Source: Alphaproteobacteria bacterium (GTDB taxonomy: Bacteria > Pseudomonadota > Alphaproteobacteria > Rs-D84). From it: 42,900 nt of DNA. The notes below the pieces were generated by a model. That model was not told where the DNA came from, searched no databases, and saw nothing but the letters and a program-made list of their open reading frames with translations. Of the stretch, positions 18,948 through 34,202 are shown piece by piece. Positions within the stretch are counted from its first letter, which is position 1, and each line of letters starts with the position of its first letter. The stretch is from positions 1-42,900 of the forward strand of contig JAFXUI010000006.1 in the NCBI GenBank assembly GCA_017535105.1. Reading direction: 5' to 3'. Position numbers and translations under genes: made by a program.

Positions 18948-19457
18948 TTAATAGCGGCCGATACAGCCCAAATATGAATTTCCAGTCGATTCCAGTACGT
19001 TTATGAACTGATTTTGGTTTTTGCCCGAAAACAGTGCCAAAATCGTCCCCGCGTCCGTTGCCAGCATATCCGCCACCGTGGCAATAGACGAATTCATTTT
19101 CTTGAAAAACCCACTGGCCGGATATATTTCTGCAGCAAATAATTGGTGCGACCCATGGTGCGCACCATCACGTTCAGCCTTTATCACCATTAACTGACAT
19201 TCCGGGGAAATAATCATTTTGTCGGTGACAACTGCGCCACCACCCAACAATTCGCCCCACCAACCTGTCGATTCGCAAAATACCGGATAATACACAACAG
19301 CATCTGGATTATTTTCGAAAATAGACGGAAAATCGATGTCTGATGAAATAACCTCTGGCATTTCGCCGGTGGCTGAATTTATGACTTTGCGCGCCAACTG
19401 GTATGTTGTGTCCCCAGTTGTTTTACGTGGCCAATAAAGAATCGGAAACTGACTCAT
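18948..19457 (-). CDS. Hypothetical protein, 169 residues
   Basis: Not recognised. The protein has no signal peptide or membrane span and looks like a cytoplasmic alpha/beta protein. It has an aromatic-rich N-terminal half (ILYWPRKTT, YYPVFCESTGWWGELLGGG) and a C-terminal half with H/G clusters (DGAHHGSHQLF). Two of its three cysteines lie near the middle and the third near the end (YLGCIGRY). The ATG is only about 8 bases behind a TATAAT, so the mRNA is probably leaderless. It lies downstream of the minus-strand VirB6-like gene. Confidence 0.6.
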   Translation of the reverse strand: MSQFPILYWPRKTTGDTTYQLARKVINSATGEMPEVISSDIDFPSIFENNPDAVVYYPVFCESTGWWGELLGGGAVVTDKMIISPECQLMVIKAERDGAHHGSHQLFAAEIYPASGFFKKMNSSIATVADMLATDAGTILALFSGKNQNQFINVLESTGNSYLGCIGRY

Positions 19458-19525: not shown

Positions 19526-20812
19526 TTATTTTTTTATATCTTTGTACCATTTCTGCACGTTTGACCACACATTTTCCACGTTCTTTTTGGTCGTCTGATA
19601 GAAATCGTCCGATATCGAAACGTTAAACAAAGTCTTGACCAGCGCAGGAATTGCCGTCATAAACATCGCAATAAATGCGCCCATAAGGATAATTGTGATA
19701 ATACTGTCGTTGCGCATCATCAATCCGTCCATAAGAATTGTCGAATCGTTTTCAGAAAATGCCGCAGACAATGCCGACACACCGTTCCACGCCCCAAACA
19801 CCGCGTTCAGAAACATTATTGCAAACGTCACAAACACGCCCGTCAGCGCGATACCCAGCGCCCCTTGGACCACGTCATTTATGATTGATTTTATGTTTTT
19901 ACGTCCATCGGGCAAAATTTTCCATCCTGGAAACACCCACGCCATAAGTGATAATGGCAACATCACCAAATCCAGCGACAGCTTTACAAATATCTCTAAG
20001 AAATATATTGGCACCGGCAATAATGCCGCAAAGAACAGCACCACAATCAACAAACCGCTAAAGAATATTGGAACATTGGGGAAAATCGGCACTTTCCACA
20101 TAATCTTGTGCATATAGTTTTCGTTGAATGCCATATTCATCATTGTCCAACCCGCCGTCATACCAATTCCAGTCATTTGGTGAACATTTGCAATCTCGCA
20201 CGCCAGGTTATGCCGCAATTTTGGTGAAAAAGTACCACGCGATGCCGAATCAGCAGATACAGACACCGGATCCGCAATTGCCGTTGCAACAATACATGTA
20301 TTAAATGCCTCATCATCTGTGACCGCGTGATTTAATGTCATACCAACACTGAATATCGGTTCAATTGCGATGTCGTTTATCATACGTGGCAATGGCGCAA
20401 CCAATAACGCGCACACGACCCCCAGTTTTAATATCCGAACACCAAAGTCCCCCGACAACGACCACGGCTCAATATTTTTTCCGTTCATATAACTTTCCAG
20501 CAACTGCCACGCAAACCAAATTGCCAATAATGCCGCAGTAAATGGAATCACAACCAAACCGATTGTACGATATATGTTTGGTAATATATCCGACATTGTG
20601 CCGATAATATCCGAAAACATCTGGCACGACCAACACGATGAAAAGAAACTGAACGCGTCATTCATATTCACCGGTACCGATGAACGATATATCGAAAAGC
20701 CCGCCAAAACGACACCACCGGCAATTGCCCCCACAACAAACGGCGCAACCGCCCCCGCCGACAGCGGCAAGAATGTTATAAATACCCGCCAAAAATTTTT
20801 TAACCATTTCAT
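19526..20812 (-). CDS. VirB6/TrbL-like inner-membrane protein 1 (divergent copy)
   Basis: The 428-residue protein has about seven membrane helices and a short basic C-terminal tail, the layout of VirB6/TrbL channel proteins of type IV secretion systems. A pair of cysteines (C60-W-S-C63) comes before the second helix, followed by a periplasmic-size loop with single cysteines, then a helical cluster (IFFSGLLIVVLFFAALLP, LDLVMLPLSLMAWVFP). It is transcribed away from four similar genes on the other strand. The -10 (TATACT) sits seven bases before the ATG, so the message is probably leaderless. Family assignment rests on topology and neighbourhood rather than strong motifs. Confidence 0.65.
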   Translation of the reverse strand: MKWLKNFWRVFITFLPLSAGAVAPFVVGAIAGGVVLAGFSIYRSSVPVNMNDAFSFFSSCWSCQMFSDIIGTMSDILPNIYRTIGLVVIPFTAALLAIWFAWQLLESYMNGKNIEPWSLSGDFGVRILKLGVVCALLVAPLPRMINDIAIEPIFSVGMTLNHAVTDDEAFNTCIVATAIADPVSVSADSASRGTFSPKLRHNLACEIANVHQMTGIGMTAGWTMMNMAFNENYMHKIMWKVPIFPNVPIFFSGLLIVVLFFAALLPVPIYFLEIFVKLSLDLVMLPLSLMAWVFPGWKILPDGRKNIKSIINDVVQGALGIALTGVFVTFAIMFLNAVFGAWNGVSALSAAFSENDSTILMDGLMMRNDSIITIILMGAFIAMFMTAIPALVKTLFNVSISDDFYQTTKKNVENVWSNVQKWYKDIKK

Positions 20813-20819
20813 CGTTTTA

Positions 20820-20853
20820 AGTATATCATATTTTGCCCCAAATGTGATATAAT
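20820..20853. promoter_or_regulatory. Divergent promoters between VirB6-like genes 1 and 2
   Basis: On the plus strand TGATATAAT (-10 at 20848-20853) precedes gene 2 by about 30 bases. On the minus strand TATACT lies seven bases before the ATG of gene 1. Neither has a convincing -35, so both look like extended or activator-dependent promoters. The 72-base gap is the only control region for the whole set. Confidence 0.5.
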
Positions 20854-20884
20854 TGAAAAGATAAAAATATAAATAAGAGAGAGA

Positions 20885-22156
20885 ATGAATTTTCTGCGCA
20901 AATTTTTGCCGGGATTATTCGCGTTGGCGGTGTGTTTTATCCCACTGTCTGCGTTTGCCGATGGCGGCATTATTGACCAGTTTAATTTGGCACCGTTTGT
21001 GCCGATGGTGCTGGACGCGATGATGACAATTGCCAGTGGTGGCTATGAATTCTTTGTCGGCAACGGAAATGGAATTATTTATTTACTGATTTGGGGATTC
21101 TTGGCAATCACCATTGTATTGTATCTAACAAAACTCTATTTACCAAAAAATTGGCTTAGCGCATTCGGTTTTTCGGGTGGTGGCGAATTAGTAGACGGCA
21201 GTGCAAAACCCGACACAATTGTCTTTAATGTTTTTAAGCCATGTCTGCGTGGAATAATTGCCGCAGGATTGCTGTTGCAAATTCGTCCAGTTATGTTGAC
21301 CGAAGTTTTGGTAAATCCATTTCTGCAATTTGGCGCACTGTACACGCACAGTATTACCGAAACTGTAAAAGGGGCCGGTGTTCCAACCGAAACAATTAAA
21401 TGTCCCGAATCTATTACACAGAAAGCTTGGATATCTGAATCGTCTTGCGAATTTTTGGTACAACCCGTTTCCGATTTATCGGTTGCAAACAACACGATGA
21501 TTAAACGTGGCTTTGAATCATTGTCACGGGGATTGCGCCAACTGATGACACTTATTCCACACGGTGGCGAAGGTTTCATAAACGTACTGACGGGCATTCT
21601 TTTAATCACAACATTTTTTGGCTGTAATCTTTTTATGGCGCTACTTATTATCCAGGGTGTATTTGAGTTTGGTATGGCACTGATACTCTATCCGTTCCAA
21701 GTTTTATCGTACGTTGTAAAATCAAGTGATAAATGGTTGGATATATGGCCCGCATTTGGTGGCGTTGTTGACGCGTTAAAGAAACTAGTTATCACGATGA
21801 TTATGTGTTCATTTATGTTGTGCGTGAATATCGCGATAATAAAATCATTGTTCACTTGGAACACATCAATCTTTGTTGTTGCCGCACACGGTTCCACAAC
21901 AACTAATGTTCCAATGGCGGCAAACACTGCGGGTGCGTTCGGCGAACACGCGATATTATGGCTGTCGTCAATACTGACGTTCTATTTGATGTTAAAGTTA
22001 TTTGATTTGACCCGTAAACAACTGGTTTCTTATGCGGGCAAAAATCCGGACAAACTGTATAACAAAGTTGTTGGCGACACAAAAACCTTGTGGACCGACA
22101 CTAAAAACGCTGGCAAAGCATTGGGCAAAGCAATTGGGTGGATTAAAAGTAAATGA
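20885..22156 (+). CDS. VirB6/TrbL-like inner-membrane protein 2
   Basis: The 423-residue protein has a cleavable signal peptide (cut near AFA-DG), a long hydrophobic core with about six helices (IIYLLIWGFLAITIVLYL; FINVLTGILLITTFFGCN; LVITMIMCSFMLCVNIAI; LWLSSILTFYLMLKLF) and a Lys-rich cytoplasmic tail. A loop with two cysteines (IKCPES, SSCEF) lies between helices 3 and 4. It opens the four-gene plus-strand run; its stop overlaps the next start as ATGA. It lacks the CxxC pair of copies 1, 3 and 4. Topology and context support a VirB6-type channel subunit. Confidence 0.65.
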   Translation: MNFLRKFLPGLFALAVCFIPLSAFADGGIIDQFNLAPFVPMVLDAMMTIASGGYEFFVGNGNGIIYLLIWGFLAITIVLYLTKLYLPKNWLSAFGFSGGGELVDGSAKPDTIVFNVFKPCLRGIIAAGLLLQIRPVMLTEVLVNPFLQFGALYTHSITETVKGAGVPTETIKCPESITQKAWISESSCEFLVQPVSDLSVANNTMIKRGFESLSRGLRQLMTLIPHGGEGFINVLTGILLITTFFGCNLFMALLIIQGVFEFGMALILYPFQVLSYVVKSSDKWLDIWPAFGGVVDALKKLVITMIMCSFMLCVNIAIIKSLFTWNTSIFVVAAHGSTTTNVPMAANTAGAFGEHAILWLSSILTFYLMLKLFDLTRKQLVSYAGKNPDKLYNKVVGDTKTLWTDTKNAGKALGKAIGWIKSK

Positions 22157-23358
22157 ACGAAGCACTTGGCAATTTTGTTGATAAAACCGTCCAATGTTAT
22201 GGGTGCCCGATATTTGATCGGCTTTTCCAGATTGTATCCAGCGCGGCGGCGGGTGTATATGAACGTATGGCGTTTTTAATGACAGTGTTGTTCTGTGTGC
22301 TATTTGCGTTCTATGTGTTAAACGCCGTATGGAAAAACATTAAAAACGATATCAAGGATCCGCTTTATCAAAAATCGATTCGTCCCGTAATTATCAATTC
22401 ACTGGTTGCACTGACGTTTTTGTTTATGGGTGTTGGTTTGCCACGTCTTATATCGCAAATAACATTTGAACCCGCAGCGGAAATCGCAACGATATACACG
22501 CAAAGTATGCTGAATACTGATTCTGAAATTGTGAATGAACGCGTTACATATCAACCGATAAAAATATCAGACGATGGTTTTTTCCGGCCTGAGCTACGCG
22601 ATAAAATCATTATGCTTATGAAAACAACAATTACACAATTCCAGTCATATATGAAACTGGGGATTGCGGTAATGGATAAAGCGTTTTCTATAAAAATGCT
22701 GTTGGGCGTTGGTGCGTTTGTTAAACACATTATTTTGTTCTTTATCGGCCTGTATTTATTCTGGGAATTCTTTAAGTTATTTTTCAGATTCTGTTGCTAT
22801 TTCGCAGACATAATTGTTGCAATGACAATGTTTGCATTTTTCTTTCCATTGTCGCTTATATTGGTCGCATTTCGTGGTGCAGACAATGCGCCATCGTGGA
22901 TGTCGGGACTGGGTAAAAACTTTGGCGCAAAGCAAATCAAAACACTTATCAACGCGATTATTGGTTTGGCCGCGGCGGTTATAACATATACCGTTATAAT
23001 GGTTATTATTGCAAAATTCTTTTCATCACCCGACACGTCTGTTACCGAAATTATGAACGCAATTACCAGTGGTGATATATTCGAAACAGATTTGTCTGAT
23101 GATAACCTTGCCACACCTACGATGATGGGAACGGTTGTGTTGGTTTATGTGATAAACTTTATCCAAGACGAAATACCAAACGTTAAAAAAATGATACTTT
23201 CCGCATTTAATGTCGAAGAAGGAAATACGTACAGCGAACAATTGGCGAATGATGCCGAACATTTAACAACACTGGCATTTAACGCGGTCAAGAAAGTCGG
23301 AGAAACTATTATTTCTGGTGGTGAAAAGAAAGAAGAAAAGAAAGACGATAAGAAATGA
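22153..23358 (+). CDS. VirB6/TrbL-like inner-membrane protein 3
   Basis: The 401-residue protein has a CxxC pair at C15-Y-G-C18, then a short amphipathic segment and a first helix (AFLMTVLFCVLFAFYVL). Four to five further helices include a very aromatic stretch (HIILFFIGLYLFWEFFKLFFRFC). The tail is charged and Glu/Lys-rich. It shares the ATGA overlap with copy 2 and again with copy 4, so these proteins are probably made in similar amounts. The aromatic helix cluster and the large loop before it are in the VirB6 style. Confidence 0.65.
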   Translation: MNEALGNFVDKTVQCYGCPIFDRLFQIVSSAAAGVYERMAFLMTVLFCVLFAFYVLNAVWKNIKNDIKDPLYQKSIRPVIINSLVALTFLFMGVGLPRLISQITFEPAAEIATIYTQSMLNTDSEIVNERVTYQPIKISDDGFFRPELRDKIIMLMKTTITQFQSYMKLGIAVMDKAFSIKMLLGVGAFVKHIILFFIGLYLFWEFFKLFFRFCCYFADIIVAMTMFAFFFPLSLILVAFRGADNAPSWMSGLGKNFGAKQIKTLINAIIGLAAAVITYTVIMVIIAKFFSSPDTSVTEIMNAITSGDIFETDLSDDNLATPTMMGTVVLVYVINFIQDEIPNVKKMILSAFNVEEGNTYSEQLANDAEHLTTLAFNAVKKVGETIISGGEKKEEKKDDKK

Positions 23359-24788
23359 AGGCAAAAATAATTTTGCTTATTGTAAGACTTGTTATGGGCG
23401 CAATCGCGTTGGGGTTGGGCGTTTGGTATTTATCGTCTTCGATTGGTGGTGCGGCAATAACATATACCAGTATGGATAATTTCCTAAATGCGATTGGTGC
23501 TGGCTCAGACATTGCGAACGCGAATGGCTGTTTCTTGTGTAAATATGTTGCGGAATTATTTGGTGTATTGGGTGACGCAACCGAAATGTTCTGGACGGCA
23601 ATAATTGACACGTTGTGGGTTTTAATGGCAATTGGGTTTGGAATATTCTTGTTCGTATACACCGGACAATACATCTATGATGCCGCAAAAAAGACCGCCA
23701 AAATTGATACGTCCGAAAAGAAAATAGAACTGCAAGCGTGGTTTGACAAGGTTTGGCATACCGGTGCACGGATTTTGGTATGTGGCGCAATACTTGGTAT
23801 GTTCAGTTTAGGCGGTACAACGGCACTGCGTTATGTAACACGCGTGACCGTAACACCGGTTATGTTTGTTGGTGCGGAACTTGGTATGGCGGCAACTGGA
23901 ATATCCGATTCCACAAAATGTGGTGTAATGGAAACGACGGTGGATTCAGACGATGTATTAAATCCTGTTTTACAACCGTTTATGTGTTCTATTGGAAATC
24001 TGAATGCAACAATGTTGGCTGGTGCGGCGGGTGGTTTTTCAATGATGAATTACGCGTGGCTTGGTATGGGTGGCGGCGCAATAACGTGGCTTGCGGGATT
24101 GGCGCTGGTCATAATGTTTTTGATAATTGGATTTGATTTGTTCTTCCAGGTGTTGTCTGTGGTGTTCAAGTTGATATTCATAATAATCTTTATGCCAATA
24201 TTTATTGCGGCGGCGGCGTTCGAACAAGTATGGGACAAAGCATCAAAATTATTCACCAAAGCAATTGAAATGCTTGCCTCATCGGCGATAAAGATTGTCG
24301 CAATATCACTTAAAATCGTAATCATATACGCAACGGTTTCCTTTGCGGCCGATGCGCATTTCCCAGGCCCAGTGGACGGATTCAGTGTGACAATGCCACC
24401 GATTTTGGGTCAGACAGCGGAAAACCCAGACGCAAAAACATTATCCGTAATGAATACATTTTCTGAATGTGAACACGTTGCGTTGGTAAATGGCGAAATG
24501 AATGCTAAAAAGTTCAAAGATTGCTTTACCGCACACCGTGCAACAATTGAACGGCGATATCCGGGTGCATTTGATTTCTTGCACGATGGCTGGGGCTTTT
24601 TAATGATGATGATTGGTATATTCGCATTATACTATTGGGTCATTTCCCCAGAAATAGACAAGATTATTACATCTGGCAAAGACACCGAATTTGACTTTGG
24701 CGGAAACATAAAACAACTTGGTAAAAACATTTGGAATTTACCATTAAGCATAACAGAAAAAATAACATCGGCAATGGGTAATAAATAG
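23355..24788 (+). CDS. VirB6/TrbL-like inner-membrane protein 4
   Basis: The longest of the set at 477 residues. An N-terminal membrane segment is followed by a CxxC pair (C59-F-L-C62) in the same place relative to the next helix as in copies 1 and 3. It then has about six helices (FDLFFQVLSVVFKLIFIIIF is typical), a C-terminal periplasmic-size loop with two cysteines (SECEHV, KDCFTAH), a last helix and a short cytoplasmic tail. Glycine-rich helices and the position of the hydrophobic cluster resemble TrbL/VirB6. Its stop (TAG) overlaps the GTG start of copy 5 by one base. Confidence 0.65.
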   Translation: MKAKIILLIVRLVMGAIALGLGVWYLSSSIGGAAITYTSMDNFLNAIGAGSDIANANGCFLCKYVAELFGVLGDATEMFWTAIIDTLWVLMAIGFGIFLFVYTGQYIYDAAKKTAKIDTSEKKIELQAWFDKVWHTGARILVCGAILGMFSLGGTTALRYVTRVTVTPVMFVGAELGMAATGISDSTKCGVMETTVDSDDVLNPVLQPFMCSIGNLNATMLAGAAGGFSMMNYAWLGMGGGAITWLAGLALVIMFLIIGFDLFFQVLSVVFKLIFIIIFMPIFIAAAAFEQVWDKASKLFTKAIEMLASSAIKIVAISLKIVIIYATVSFAADAHFPGPVDGFSVTMPPILGQTAENPDAKTLSVMNTFSECEHVALVNGEMNAKKFKDCFTAHRATIERRYPGAFDFLHDGWGFLMMMIGIFALYYWVISPEIDKIITSGKDTEFDFGGNIKQLGKNIWNLPLSITEKITSAMGNK

Positions 24789-26101
24789 TGATTAAATACG
24801 TGCGCAAATTTTTATCAAAAATCTTTATCGCAATTGTTTGCGCAACATTGTCTTGTGCCGCGATCGCCGCAACAAATATCCCAACTGGCGAAATCGGCGA
24901 ATATGGTACATGGATGACCGAAAGCAACCGCGATGCATTTGTTGATACATTGGTCGGTCAAGACGGTGATTTGATTGCGTTTCAATCAGATTTCCAAAAA
25001 CAACTTGTCCGCGACTATGTCCCGGTTGAGGCACGCGTTGGTGTCGCAATGATGAACGGATTAAACATAGTTGCGAAAATACTGGATTCAACACTTGTGC
25101 GATTTATGGTTATTTTCATCATCACAATGTATGCGTTTTGGATAATGCTGGAAGCATACAATATGATGACCACCGACAGCGATGTTAAAAAACTTATCAA
25201 ATCTATTGTCAATAAAACTGTCTGGCTTATTGTTTGGCTTGCCGTATTGGAAATCGGTCCGGCCCAGATATTTATGTTTGTTGTTGGTCCAATCATAACA
25301 CTTGGGACGATGCTTTCTGATTTTATCTTGAACGCAATTACCAAAACCGCCGGCATTGTTATCCCAGACACATGTAGTGCAATTCGTGATTATGCCGCCG
25401 CAACAACACCACACGATATGATTATTGACGCAACCGCGGCCGCTGATGTTTTATGTGTTCCAACACGCCTGTCTGGCTTTTTCGTAACGGCAATTTCCGC
25501 TGGATTTAAATGGATGATTGTGGGCATCGGACACAGCGCATTCACATTCCTTATGGGTGCCGTATTTGTTGTTATCTTTGCGTGGAACACGTGGAAATTT
25601 GCATTGATGGCAATGTCGGTGATAATGAATCTATTTTTGGGTGTGTTGCTGTTACCGTTCACCGCATTGGCCGAAACAATTCCACAAACATCGTACAAAG
25701 GTGTTGTGGGTAACATATTTAATTCATTTTTGGGATTGTTTAAGTTGGGGTCGGTCAAACTAGACACACAAATAAATCGCTTTGTAAATGCCGCAGTTTA
25801 CTTTGTGTCATTATCTATTGTAATTGCGATATGCGCGGCGCTACTTTCGGGTGTTATTACACCAACGACTGTGGCCGATGTACCAACACTTGAAAACGAT
25901 GGCTTTATACCAACATTACTGACCGGCGCATTGGTTGCGTGGCTTGCGGCCCAGGCGGGCAGCATCGCCAAAGACATTGGCGGTCAAATACCCGATGACG
26001 GCACTGGCAAACAATTTACCGAAGACATTAAAACATTTATCAAAGATAATTACGATGCTGCTAAATCCTGGGTAAAAGCATATAAAGAAAGCAAAAAATA
26101 A
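24788..26101 (+). CDS. VirB6/TrbL-like inner-membrane protein 5
   Basis: The 437-residue protein starts at GTG with a signal peptide ending near AIAA-TN. It has about seven helices (RFMVIFIITMYAFWIMLE; WLIVWLAVLEIGPAQIFMFV; FTFLMGAVFVVIFAWNTW; FVSLSIVIAICAALL) and a Lys-rich tail. Two cysteines stand in the central loop (DTCSAI, VLCVP). It ends three bases before the convergent helicase gene, with no terminator between, so the transcripts probably overlap. It closes the coupled run of four. Confidence 0.65.
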   Translation: MIKYVRKFLSKIFIAIVCATLSCAAIAATNIPTGEIGEYGTWMTESNRDAFVDTLVGQDGDLIAFQSDFQKQLVRDYVPVEARVGVAMMNGLNIVAKILDSTLVRFMVIFIITMYAFWIMLEAYNMMTTDSDVKKLIKSIVNKTVWLIVWLAVLEIGPAQIFMFVVGPIITLGTMLSDFILNAITKTAGIVIPDTCSAIRDYAAATTPHDMIIDATAAADVLCVPTRLSGFFVTAISAGFKWMIVGIGHSAFTFLMGAVFVVIFAWNTWKFALMAMSVIMNLFLGVLLLPFTALAETIPQTSYKGVVGNIFNSFLGLFKLGSVKLDTQINRFVNAAVYFVSLSIVIAICAALLSGVITPTTVADVPTLENDGFIPTLLTGALVAWLAAQAGSIAKDIGGQIPDDGTGKQFTEDIKTFIKDNYDAAKSWVKAYKESKK

Positions 26102-28919: not shown

Positions 28920-28958
28920 GATTTATGATTTCTGATTTATGACTTCTGATTTTTTAAG
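28920..28958. repeat. Short 14-base tandem repeat
   Basis: GATTTATGATTTCT (28920-28933) is followed by GATTTATGACTTCT (28934-28947) and a partial third copy. It lies in the gap between dnaQ and the end of the convergent cysteine-rich gene. No classical terminator hairpin is seen here. Confidence 0.6.
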
Positions 28959-31194
28959 TGCCACTTGATGTGTTTGGAACACACGTGTATCCATTACCAG
29001 TAAAACCACCATCACACTCGCATACACCGTATGTATTGGGTGTTGCATTTGCATCGCAATTTTCAACACAGGTGCCATTCCATACAAAATAACCCGAATT
29101 ACACCGACATGCCGCATTGACATATCCATCAGCAGGGCCGTCTTCACGTTTTGATTTATTTGGTGAAATCTGATGACCAACACTAACAAACGTACTGTTG
29201 TCTGGGCAAATTAACGATTGATAGAACATCTTGGATACCGCACCAATTAATGTCTTTTCGTCTTTATACGGTGTAACGTGTTGTCCACCGTCTGAGGTCG
29301 ATTCTATCCCATTCGGGAATATCGCATATGCACATGTCAGCGCAACATTATGACACGCACCACTCATAACATTCATAACACTGTCTGCACTTGCCGCCGA
29401 AGACCAAGAATTAACTTGTGAAACTTGTTGATTATAACAAGATGCCACATCAACCATACAACTTGATGCATAGTCAGAAATAATTTTATGTTGTGATGCA
29501 CGGATATTTATCATTGCGCGCTGTACATAGTTTACAACAATGTCGTTCCATGGTTTATATGTACCTTCGGTATATGAATACGCCTGGCATTTATCCAGCA
29601 CCGCACGGCACAAACCTTCATCTGTGACTTTTTGTTTAGTACCAATTTTCTGTAATAAATACTTTACTGTACACGCACCATCACCACCACTGGACGTTGT
29701 TGTACCACCCTCTGTCGATGTCTGGGCCGCACACGATGGACCAATTGCCGTTGTTTTATATGAACTTTCCAAGAAATCACCAGTAATAGCGGTTGTATCG
29801 TAATTTGTCATAAACTCCAGTATCTTGGAAATATCCTGACCCAGAACAACCTTGCCATTTTCGTCGATATATTTTTTTGTTGGGTCGACACATTTCGCAT
29901 AGTCTGCGCCACATACCATTTCATCGGTCATACATGTTTCCAGCGCAGCAATACAACCCTTGGCATCATATTGGTTTTTATTTTGTAACACCGCAAGGCG
30001 CGCCTTTTGTAACATACGTTCTGCACTGCGCACATTTGAAACCAATGTTTCATTTAATTTTTCCAAACCCTTTTCATACGCGATACAATCTTTATCAATA
30101 GCCAAGTCATAATTCCCAGACACTTGTTGAATTGTTGAACCCGCTTTTTTACATTGGTTCAAAACAGTTTTACAACGGCTTTTTGCGGCATTGTACAGTT
30201 CCGCACCACGCAAGTTGGATAAACTGCTGGTATTGGTGGTCAAGAAATCTAAATTAAACAAATCAACTTCGGACGAAAAATCCAAATCCATATCCAAACC
30301 AAAATCACCCGAAGAATAAGACGCAGTTAGTGTTGTTGGATCCTTTATCATCTTTTCGATTTGTTCCAACATATTGCGGTTTTCGGTCGTATCGGTTGAA
30401 CCACTTAACGCTTCTTCGGCCTCGGTCGCGTTCATAATTGCGCGAATTTCGTCCGCCGACAAACCGATATAACGAATATTTTGCGCAACCTCATTCAACT
30501 TTGCATTTGCTTCATTGACGGCATCTTCGACCTTTTTATACCTGGACAGATTGGCACTGCAACTGCAACGCTTTTGGTTATTATCAATTACCGCACAGAA
30601 TTGATCCATACATTCGTTATACTGGTCCTGGCATGAACTGTTCAATTCCGCGGTTTGCTCCAAAATTTCTTTTGCTTCGGCAATTGATTCCTTGGTCGGT
30701 GTTTTGGCGGCGGCACGACCCGTCACCTTGCGAATATCAATATCAATGTTGGAACCAGTTTGTTGATTTGTACCCGCAATAATCGCACGACCACCATATT
30801 CGGCAACACTGGGGCGCAAAACCAATCCCGCACGACGTACCGATGGATCGCTGTTTATGTCCGATTTACGTGTATTTAATTCCAAACCACCACGTGCCGT
30901 TACCGATGTGCCCAAACCCGAACGCGCCACAACCGTTTCCGATTTAGCTTTTTCCGCGACTGTCTCTGTTGTTTCGGTTGGAATTATACGTTTAATAGAG
31001 GTCTGACTTTGTACCGCGGTACGTGTTGAATTACGCGTGCCGGTCCCCTGGCTCGATGTTGTTGATGTTGCGCTTTCCGTACTTTGTGCCGCACCCGTTG
31101 GAATTACACGCGATGGAACAACCCCGTCAACTGCAAATGCAGGACAGGCAACCAGAGCCATCAATAAAAATAACGGCTTGTGCATAATCATCAT
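28954..31194 (-). CDS. Large secreted cysteine-rich protein with EGF-like end (paralogue A)
   Basis: The 746-residue protein has a signal peptide (cut near AFA-VD) and a Ser/Thr-rich spacer to about residue 180. A cysteine core follows with C188-x6-C195-M-D-x2-C200-x9-C210-x-C212. Long helical stretches hold further cysteine pairs (CIAALETCM, CGADYAKC, SSCMVDVASC). The final 50 residues (C696-C738) form an EGF-like segment with CRCNSGYFVWNGTC, then CECDGGFTGNGYTC. The even, paired cysteines suggest an oxidised periplasmic or cell-surface protein. A second copy lies at 32019. No known family was recognised. The reading begins with ATG ATG ATT ATG, so the start is uncertain by up to three codons; the promoter is an extended -10 close to it. 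Confidence 0.8.
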   Translation of the reverse strand: MMIMHKPLFLLMALVACPAFAVDGVVPSRVIPTGAAQSTESATSTTSSQGTGTRNSTRTAVQSQTSIKRIIPTETTETVAEKAKSETVVARSGLGTSVTARGGLELNTRKSDINSDPSVRRAGLVLRPSVAEYGGRAIIAGTNQQTGSNIDIDIRKVTGRAAAKTPTKESIAEAKEILEQTAELNSSCQDQYNECMDQFCAVIDNNQKRCSCSANLSRYKKVEDAVNEANAKLNEVAQNIRYIGLSADEIRAIMNATEAEEALSGSTDTTENRNMLEQIEKMIKDPTTLTASYSSGDFGLDMDLDFSSEVDLFNLDFLTTNTSSLSNLRGAELYNAAKSRCKTVLNQCKKAGSTIQQVSGNYDLAIDKDCIAYEKGLEKLNETLVSNVRSAERMLQKARLAVLQNKNQYDAKGCIAALETCMTDEMVCGADYAKCVDPTKKYIDENGKVVLGQDISKILEFMTNYDTTAITGDFLESSYKTTAIGPSCAAQTSTEGGTTTSSGGDGACTVKYLLQKIGTKQKVTDEGLCRAVLDKCQAYSYTEGTYKPWNDIVVNYVQRAMINIRASQHKIISDYASSCMVDVASCYNQQVSQVNSWSSAASADSVMNVMSGACHNVALTCAYAIFPNGIESTSDGGQHVTPYKDEKTLIGAVSKMFYQSLICPDNSTFVSVGHQISPNKSKREDGPADGYVNAACRCNSGYFVWNGTCVENCDANATPNTYGVCECDGGFTGNGYTCVPNTSSGT

Positions 31195-32018: not shown

Positions 32019-34202
32019 TTATGGATTTGCCGGTGTGTTATCTTGCAACCATGTACGCAATGAAACACCCTTTGGATCGTAATCGTTAGCCGTTGTTCCC
32101 AACGCTTCCTGCAGACACAATTCACGTAATGCCGCAGAATCTTTGACCGCGGTTATACCATTTGTCGCAATTGTTGTTGCCACAGCGGCGGTCGCGTCCT
32201 TGGTCGCGGCACCATTCAAAATTTCGTTTAATGTTATGACGTTACGACATGTATTGTTCGCATAATCTTGGGTGTACGAACACTGTAAACTGTCTGCGTC
32301 ATCAATAATTGCCTTGAATTGAGCATACGATGGGTTACAAACCATGTCTTCATAGCAATTCGGAACCTGGGACATTTGTGCACAGTATGTTTTGATACGC
32401 GCGTTTGTCCATGGAACAGATGAGGTTGGTCCGTGTGCCGACAACATTGTTTCATAGCAATCATAAATTTCATCAACACATTCTGTAAAGTTGGTGATTG
32501 CGTTTGTCGCATCCGCCAAAATGTTTTCCTCTTCTTCATTCTTAAATTCAAGACGCTTTTGCTGTAATGCCTGTTGTGCAGCAATTTTCTGATAACCAAT
32601 CTTTTGCGCTGTTGCCTTTAACATATCGCCATACACGTCGCACGCCGCGTTTGTATCCAGCAAATATTTCTGCATCACCGAACGACGCGCATCGGCAACC
32701 GGGCCACGCAATGTCGCATATGGATCGGTCGTTGTTGTTGTACCGTTCGTTGTTGTTGACGATGTATAACCAAAGCATGTTGCAGACGATGTTGTTGTCG
32801 CATTTGTCGAACCACGTTCATTTAATGTGACATCACCAGTGGACGAAATTGCAACCTTGCTGTTATAATTAAATGGACAATTCGATGTTGCACCGTTTGC
32901 ACAAAGCGATGCAGTTGTTGAACCACCGGTTGAATTATTCACACGAACGGTCGGCGGTGTACCACACGCTTCGTAAATACCGTTAAAGCATGTATCCAAA
33001 ACACGACCACAAACGTTGTTGTGTGCATATTGGAACAATTCATAACCCCATGTGTTTGCCAAACTGTCCAGTGTTCTGTCCGAAGAATCAGCCGAACTGG
33101 TCAACCCAGAAACGATATTGGAAACGTTTGTGAACGCATTTAACAAATTGTTATTATCTGTTTCAAGCAATTTAACCGTGTCAGCCTTACTATCCGCCCA
33201 CGATTGTAATGTTGCCAAGATGTCCGATGACGAACCTTCGATATTTGCAATATCAAATCCAAATGTATTGCCCGAAGCGGAACAATACGATGGTTTTGCA
33301 CATTGACTTACCGAACCACCATTGTTCGCAAAGATATGATGGTTTGAACACCAATCAATTGCTTCCTGGGACGACAGACCATATTTCGATGTTGTTTCCT
33401 GCCATGAAACACAGTTCATAACCTTTTCAGCGTCGGTCAATTGGAAAGCTTGGGAAACGTCTTTACCCTTGTTTGCAATCAACAATGCCAATTCGCCCGA
33501 TGCTTTGATAAGTTCTTCGTTTGCGGTTTCCAATGCATCTTCGGCCTGGATAAATGATTTTACACGTGCCGCACATGCGCATCTGCCCTGGGCCGCGCTA
33601 CGTGCCGTACAAATTTCGTCCATACAGGTATAGTATGAATCAAGACAGTTCTGATAAGCCTCCGCTGAAATCAAACCAGTTGTAGAATCGATGATATTGG
33701 AATAGTTCCCAGTATATAATTTACCCGACAAATATGTGTATTGCGTTGATGCCGCCGCGCCCTTGTTACCCTGGATAGCATTTCCAGAAAGTGATACACG
33801 CGATGGCGAATTTGTTGTACGGGCAACGACATTACGCCCGACCGACGTACGACCACCGCCACGCGATACAACGTTACGAGATGGCGTATTTGCGCGCGAT
33901 GCAGAATTAGATGTTGTACGTGCAACAACATTGCGTTGTGGTGCGTTTGCACGTGATGCCGCCACTGGTGCGGTTGTTGTACGCACACGCGATGCCGCAT
34001 TACTGCGCCCAGATGCACGCGATGTCGCGTTTGCACGTGGCGATGCCGCATTTGATACGGTCGGCGAAATTACCGGCGCAATTGGATCAGCAAAAACCGC
34101 GCGCATAGACAAAAATGTCGAACACACAAAAAACGCCCCGGCCAGCAAGAAAACTGTACCCATCGCATTTTTTGCAACACCCGCAATATTACGTCTTGTC
34201 AT
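32019..34202 (-). CDS. Large secreted cysteine-rich protein (paralogue B)
   Basis: The 727-residue protein has an N-terminal membrane/signal segment (about 12-38, ending RAVFA-DP). A basic Ser/Arg/Asn-rich region of about 100 residues follows, with a repeated RNVVARTT element (around 90 and 123). The cysteine core is C186-x6-C193-M-D-x2-C198-x9-C208-x-C210, with exactly the spacing of paralogue A. Long helices with spaced cysteines follow (ECVDEIYDCYE and others). It lacks the EGF-like end of A. The shared core, the later helical regions and the secretion signal show common descent. A strong AGGAG lies before the ATG. Function unknown; a surface or periplasmic structure is likely. Confidence 0.8.
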   Translation of the reverse strand: MTRRNIAGVAKNAMGTVFLLAGAFFVCSTFLSMRAVFADPIAPVISPTVSNAASPRANATSRASGRSNAASRVRTTTAPVAASRANAPQRNVVARTTSNSASRANTPSRNVVSRGGGRTSVGRNVVARTTNSPSRVSLSGNAIQGNKGAAASTQYTYLSGKLYTGNYSNIIDSTTGLISAEAYQNCLDSYYTCMDEICTARSAAQGRCACAARVKSFIQAEDALETANEELIKASGELALLIANKGKDVSQAFQLTDAEKVMNCVSWQETTSKYGLSSQEAIDWCSNHHIFANNGGSVSQCAKPSYCSASGNTFGFDIANIEGSSSDILATLQSWADSKADTVKLLETDNNNLLNAFTNVSNIVSGLTSSADSSDRTLDSLANTWGYELFQYAHNNVCGRVLDTCFNGIYEACGTPPTVRVNNSTGGSTTASLCANGATSNCPFNYNSKVAISSTGDVTLNERGSTNATTTSSATCFGYTSSTTTNGTTTTTDPYATLRGPVADARRSVMQKYLLDTNAACDVYGDMLKATAQKIGYQKIAAQQALQQKRLEFKNEEEENILADATNAITNFTECVDEIYDCYETMLSAHGPTSSVPWTNARIKTYCAQMSQVPNCYEDMVCNPSYAQFKAIIDDADSLQCSYTQDYANNTCRNVITLNEILNGAATKDATAAVATTIATNGITAVKDSAALRELCLQEALGTTANDYDPKGVSLRTWLQDNTPANP

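Follow-up and report, generated by a model that had tools for sequence, protein, structure and literature searches.

Arrays of several VirB6 genes are already known from the Rickettsiales (PMC2653234, PMC7648143), and the reason why some bacteria carry several divergent copies of this gene is a question dating from the Rickettsia work of 2009. The rvh type IV secretion system (T4SS) is defined by duplicated VirB4, VirB8, and VirB9, a multicopy VirB6, and the lack of VirB5 (PMC11077975). The center of the machine is occupied, in R388 and (as DotA) in Dot/Icm, by a VirB6 pentamer through which substrates presumably travel (PMC12624023, PMC12857230). Here, we describe a block of five adjacent open reading frames (ORFs) at positions 19526-26101 of a stretch of 42,900 nucleotides, hereafter the window, from a genome of the alphaproteobacterial order Rs-D84. 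The window is contig 1 of a six-contig assembly of 869,733 bases (0.87 Mb) that is 96% complete. The five ORFs encode polytopic membrane proteins of 401-477 amino acids (aa), which are almost certainly VirB6 proteins and are designated a to e according to their position in the block.

A preliminary description of this DNA had reported five ORFs of this size range, four of them coupled through ATGA, ATGA, and TAGTG and the fifth divergent across 72 bases; all five were found, and the junctions are read directly in the sequence (Table 1). The same description assigned five to seven membrane helices to each protein; the multi-helix nature stands, with a slightly higher count of 6-8 membrane segments in each of the five by hydropathy. 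All of them therefore show the VirB6/TrbL trait of at least five hydrophobic helices in at least about 300 aa.

Direct Pfam and NCBIfam scans of the five proteins gave chance-level matches only, and standard profiles would annotate all of them as hypothetical membrane proteins. Because the gathering cut-off of PF04610 (TrbL) is not reached, the assignment to VirB6 is based on the fold and on intermediate sequences. Block members from other families of the order match PF04610 at E-values of 1.7e-4, 9e-4, and 1.5e-3, below the strength of the gathering cut-off, and order block members match PRK13852, a type IV secretion model of NCBIfam, at 5e-6. Outside the order, the hidden Markov model (HMM) of a matches multi-VirB6 arrays of other alphaproteobacteria with E-values up to 1e-19, and the members of these arrays match PF04610. 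The HMM comparison with the Pfam TrbL/VirB6 family that had been suggested for these proteins thus gives no direct match for the window proteins, and the link is made through their relatives in the order and the arrays outside it.

AlphaFold2 models were made for d and b, as representatives of two different profile clusters, and compared with some 350,000 chains of the Protein Data Bank (PDB). The best matches of both are chains of R388 TrwI/VirB6: 7o3v_F for d (VIA Z 13.3, 4.2 Å, 261 of 261 residues), and a match with VIA Z 13.2, 4.9 Å, and 256 of 260 residues for b, for which Foldseek rows 1-8 are all chains of R388 stalk entries containing TrwI (prob 0.98-1.00). DotA, the VirB6 of Legionella, ranks high for both models, with Z 8.8 for d, where it comes next after TrwI, and 10.7 for b. 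Comparable Z-scores can be reached by chance for helical bundles; the fold match carries weight because the top rows among all chains are VirB6 proteins, aligned end to end. The distance to a single TrwI sequence could not be bridged by hhalign, and the A1 profile matched no PDB sequence. Paralogs a, c, and e are tied to the modelled b and d by hhalign profile comparison. Fold, intermediate sequences, and mutual homology together leave little doubt about the identity of the five proteins, and the VirB6/TrbL likeness proposed in the preliminary description is borne out by both structural and profile similarity.

Between paralogs, hhalign gives 97% for a-c, 92% for b-e, 88% for a-d, 68% for d-e, and 50% for a-e, against 0.1-1%, at most about 1%, for the control profiles of MraY and FtsW; a and c also show full-length similarity by BLASTP (E 1e-13). 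The paralogs are about 20% identical to each other and 54-66% identical, on average, between genomes, with e as the least conserved (mean pairwise identity of 54% vs 63-66% for the other four). When profiles are compared with those of families f150 and f151, each window paralog scores best at its own position, and in family f149 the same-position match is clear for d and e only. On a tree of 100 proteins, the five position labels need 12 changes vs 61 when shuffled; the deep paralog tree is partly resolved, with long branches, and the arrays L099 and L100 from outside the order group by genome. These profile and tree comparisons establish the five as mutual paralogs and their positions as orthologous deep into the order, most strongly in the window's family and for d.

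The related contigs of sufficient length show the five genes with unchanged order and orientation, together with a 169-aa ORF upstream; two of them (L007 and L012) keep the block though their outer flanks differ. This recurrence indicates that the block is not a product of chance. One of these relatives found by sequence, Candidatus Enterousia scatequi (L013), is listed in the same genus as the window genome. A further 20 loci, taken from other species and genera within the family, all hold exactly five VirB6 genes, and so do the whole blocks collected earlier (L002, L003, L005-L013; L054-L058, L060-L065), none having more or fewer. Loci cut by contig ends (L004, L014, L015, L059, L066) were left out of this count, and some members in L054-L058 and L060-L065 were recognized by position and membrane helices, not by an HMM match. 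Of 190 order genomes, 178 have a match to profile d, the most widely recognizable of the five, and 168 have VirB4. Short stop-start overlaps are found at same-strand junctions in 59-67% of cases (b/c 26 of 39, c/d 25 of 41, d/e 22 of 37), mostly of 1 or 4 bases and a few of 8. In two deep branches of the family (L056 and L058), all five genes lie on one strand in the order a-b-c-d-e, so the divergent orientation of a in the window lineage is probably an inversion. The block was not found in viral contigs, and in a sample of 190 genomes from the class, profile d detected it in none beyond the genus; with profile a, matches in other orders were obtained, in loci selected by PF04610.

Two genomes from two other alphaproteobacterial families have VirB6-type genes split over separate loci, apparently 2+1+2 = five in G047 (L101, L102, L103) and 3+2 = five in G151 (L105, L106), counts that are tentative since not every member has a Pfam match. 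VirB6-type proteins with an inserted M23 peptidoglycan peptidase domain occur in the same order (E 6e-33) and in another (E 5e-15), which looks like the incorporation of a wall-cutting enzyme into VirB6 in each of two lineages. The 169-aa ORF, which has no family match, adjoins paralog a in the 20 further loci and in the window's close relatives, with a mean pairwise identity of 78%, above that of the VirB6 genes; it is absent beside the block in deeper genera (L055-L058). It is possibly a T4SS partner or a bystander. Two cysteine-rich exported paralogs, one close to the VirB6 block and the other close to VirB3-VirB4, are 38% identical over 402 aa (E 7e-77) and have a third, weaker relative in the window. 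These proteins are candidates for partners of the T4SS, either surface-located or secreted.

The preliminary description was right that the window contains no other VirB/VirD genes; the T4SS genes besides VirB6 are scattered over four other places of the same genome. The genome-wide check that it proposed for virB4, virB8-11, and virD4 found all of them, plus VirB3 (Table 1). Neither of the two outcomes that it had named as refuting, a lack of VirB6/TrbL similarity or a genome devoid of other T4SS genes, was thus observed. A VirB/VirD4 set (type IVA, MPF_T-like) of VirB3, VirB4, VirB6, VirB8, VirB9, VirB10, VirB11, and VirD4 is therefore present, VirB6 being recognized by its fold. VirB4 (by PF03135), VirB8, and VirB9 have one match each in this 96% complete genome, and VirB4 is single by PF03135 in each of the 168 order genomes with a match. 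The presence on the chromosome throughout the order speaks against a mobile element and is compatible with DNA transfer as a function.

Some genes of the machine have additional features. At its C-terminus, VirB9 has a peptidoglycan-binding SPOR domain (E 4e-5, passing the Pfam cut-off), and VirB10, of 793 aa, ends in a cysteine-rich tail and has an additional choice-of-anchor-D-like (Ig-like) stretch at the N-terminus. A 203-aa exported ORF overlaps the end of VirB4 by 8 bases and has no family match; we considered it as VirB5 and dropped it, as it shows no VirB5 match and instead an HENRH (HExxH-type) motif, from which it is perhaps a periplasmic metalloprotease of the machine. Genes for a PilB/GspE-type ATPase, a T2SSF protein, and a PilP-like protein in an Enterousia genome belong to a type IV pilus or a type II system, although type IV pili have been named only for UBA9783 (PMC12306168).

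In our reading, the block encodes five VirB6 proteins, assembling one of each, of a single VirB/VirD4-type (type IVA) system that is chromosomal and maintained by vertical inheritance. As a whole, this reading seems to us fairly probable, and for the one-of-each assembly taken by itself our analysis puts the chances at about even. Given that the VirB6 genes are fixed at five, that they diverge from one another and that the frames of four overlap, and given the pentameric state of the known VirB6 and DotA, a hetero-pentamer is the simplest reading, and a more specific form of the hetero-oligomeric channel suggested in the preliminary description. The five paralogs would be non-redundant and would contribute one copy each to a pentameric VirB6 funnel or stalk at the inner membrane, through which substrates would pass, and the overlapping reading frames would help to equalize the output of b, c, d, and e. 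To judge from the title of a 2009 study by Bao, VirB6 paralogs of Ehrlichia reportedly interact.

In nearly every ortholog of a, c, and d, a CxxC motif, often CWxC, lies just ahead of the first core membrane helix, and hhalign aligns the three motifs with one another. The motif is present at all five positions in the outside arrays L099 and L100 and at most positions in family f149. TrwI and L098 lack it, as do b and e in the window's family. The cysteines of a, c, and d, presumably on the periplasmic side, could lock subunits or loops by disulfides.

Several observations weigh against a hetero-pentameric VirB6 complex of a complete machine. PF04610 has no match among the window proteins or in the whole genome even at E 10, the mean pLDDT of 56 (d) and 62 (b) denotes low to modest confidence in the models, and the Foldseek E-values are not significant when taken alone. 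No candidate for VirB2 or VirB7 was found among the small ORFs beside the T4SS genes in the area searched, and no VirB5, a protein that is hard to detect, was recognized next to VirB4 in the area searched. Paralog e evolves faster than the others. In addition, the number of VirB6 paralogs is not always five: it is four in Anaplasma (PMC7648143), an argument against a one-of-each rule that would hold everywhere.

The main alternative, unlikely in our judgment, is that one paralog, most likely d, is the true VirB6 of a homopentameric stalk and the other four are derived accessory membrane proteins, acting as surface-exposed, substrate-specific, or assembly factors. It would account for d keeping its position and recognizability in every family of the order examined and for the different rates of the paralogs, e being the fastest, and two VirB6 paralogs of Anaplasma are reported to be surface exposed (PMC7648143). 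However, all five proteins share the same size class and membrane layout, the alignments of both modelled paralogs, which belong to different profile clusters, cover TrwI almost completely, and every order locus with a whole block has kept the set without loss or gain.

Alternative homopentamers, each of a single paralog and swapped for different substrates or stages, appear improbable: a divergence to about 20% identity makes specialization plausible, but the tight packing of b-e and the conservation of their frame overlaps in the order favor simultaneous and equal synthesis over switching. We give similarly little credit to an rvh system shared with, or acquired from, the Rickettsiales with subsequent loss of the duplicate VirB4, VirB8, and VirB9. 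Five tandem VirB6 genes and scattered T4SS islets are indeed found in Rickettsia (PMC2653234), but the three genes are single here, VirB4 is so in 168 of 168 order genomes with a match, and the order-wide presence points to inheritance within the order. That these are five unrelated membrane proteins or transporters without a secretion role, as the lack of direct Pfam/NCBIfam matches above the cut-off and the separation of the block from the other T4SS genes might suggest, is very improbable in view of the fold search, the intermediate-sequence links, and the T4SS elsewhere in the genome.

The secretion system also bears on the biology of these bacteria. According to GTDB, Enterousia belongs to Rs-D84, an uncultured order of Alphaproteobacteria all of whose members have reduced genomes and for which dependence on partners is thought likely; the 2025 description of Rs-D84 and Enterousia proposes feeding via unspecified "intercellular connections" and "hypothetical membrane-bound proteins", and a secretion system goes unmentioned in it (PMC12306168). 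An order-wide T4SS is a concrete candidate for these connections, and, more speculatively, the machine may join partner-dependent gut bacteria to other cells. The further-reaching proposal, in which the one-of-each hetero-pentamer is obligate, and asymmetric where the solved systems are five-fold symmetric, and the machine is the intercellular connection of Rs-D84 to partner cells, is tentative and in our view somewhat doubtful. We found no open-access paper linking Rs-D84, RF32, or Enterousia to a T4SS, and none linking VirB6 to a heteropentamer.

Table 1. Features of the VirB6 block, its surroundings, and the other secretion genes. Plain positions refer to the window; C and L designate other contigs and loci.
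Feature	Position	Strand	Evidence or remark
VirB6 paralog a, 428 aa	19526-20812	-	ORF; divergent from b-e; CxxC (CWSC) precedes first core membrane helix
CxxC of a, residues 60-63, CWSC	20624-20635	-	in 13/13 aligned orthologs
Divergent intergenic region a/b, 72 bases	20813-20884	.	sequence; both promoters presumed
VirB6 paralog b, 423 aa	20885-22156	+	ORF; model matches R388 TrwI/VirB6
ATGA stop/start overlap b/c	22153-22156	+	sequence
VirB6 paralog c, 401 aa	22153-23358	+	ORF; CYGC precedes first core membrane helix
CxxC of c, residues 15-18, CYGC	22195-22206	+	in 14/14 aligned orthologs; aligned by hhalign with motif of a
ATGA stop/start overlap c/d	23355-23358	+	sequence
VirB6 paralog d, 477 aa	23355-24788	+	ORF; CFLC precedes first core membrane helix
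CxxC of d, residues 59-62, CFLC	23529-23540	+	in 14/14 aligned orthologs; aligned by hhalign with motif of a
TAGTG stop/start overlap d/e	24786-24790	+	base 24788 belongs to both the d stop and the GTG start of e
VirB6 paralog e, 437 aa, GTG start	24788-26101	+	ORF
169-aa ORF	18948-19457	-	upstream of block, beside paralog a
Cysteine-rich exported protein	28954-31194	-	close to VirB6 block
Weaker relative of the cysteine-rich pair	32019-34202
Cysteine-rich exported protein	L016:14348-16555	+	close to VirB3-VirB4
VirB3 and VirB4, adjacent	C2, about 95.6-98.3 kb		VirB3 E 6e-9; VirB4 TIGR00929 E 2e-113
203-aa exported ORF	L017:2317-2928	+	behind VirB4
ATPase, T2SSF, and PilP-like genes	L017:8970-13685	+
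VirD4	C2, 32-35 kb		4e-51
VirB8-VirB9-VirB10	C3, 27-32 kb		VirB8 1.4e-13; VirB9 CagX 2.5e-21; VirB10 TrbI 2e-18
VirB9 with SPOR domain	L021:11524-13068	-
VirB10, 793 aa	L021:9121-11502	-
VirB11	C3, about 103-104 kb		TIGR02788 4e-43
VirB6-type protein with M23 domain	L063:9499-12213		same order
VirB6-type protein with M23 domain	L106:6213-9854		another order

Among the described systems, the rvh of Rickettsia (rvhB6a-e) resembles this one in its five tandem, divergent VirB6 paralogs and scattered T4SS genes (PMC2653234, PMC11077975), as well as in its host, a small-genome, host-associated alphaproteobacterium. Unlike it, the Rs-D84 system has compact VirB6 proteins without large flanking extensions, a VirB9 with a C-terminal SPOR domain, single VirB4, VirB8, and VirB9 genes, and a host from outside the Rickettsiales. 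Since multicopy VirB6 is the only defining trait of rvh shown here and the duplication of VirB4, VirB8, and VirB9 is absent, we rejected membership in rvh; the "compact form of the multi-VirB6 system" of the preliminary description is an apt name, as long as it is not taken to mean the same system as in the Rickettsiales. VirB6-1 to VirB6-4 of Anaplasma and Ehrlichia are likewise tandem paralogs of one T4SS, and are co-transcribed there, but they number four, have C-terminal extensions of up to thousands of residues, and sit in a virB3-virB4-virB6 operon (PMC7648143). R388 TrwI/VirB6 (PDB 7o3v, 8rt9, 8rtd) shares the predicted fold over nearly the whole solved chain; it differs in being the 342-aa product of one gene, in forming a homopentamer, and in having no CxxC. 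Legionella DotA (PDB 9ngy), the second VirB6-type protein among the structural matches, is pentameric in its own machine (PMC12857230) and differs as the product of one large gene of a type IVB system. Multi-VirB6 arrays are thus known, and what is new is a compact variant, fixed at five and accompanied by single VirB4, VirB8, and VirB9 genes, in Rs-D84, whose extension-free paralogs offer a clean test of the one-of-each hetero-pentamer idea of VirB6 multiplication.

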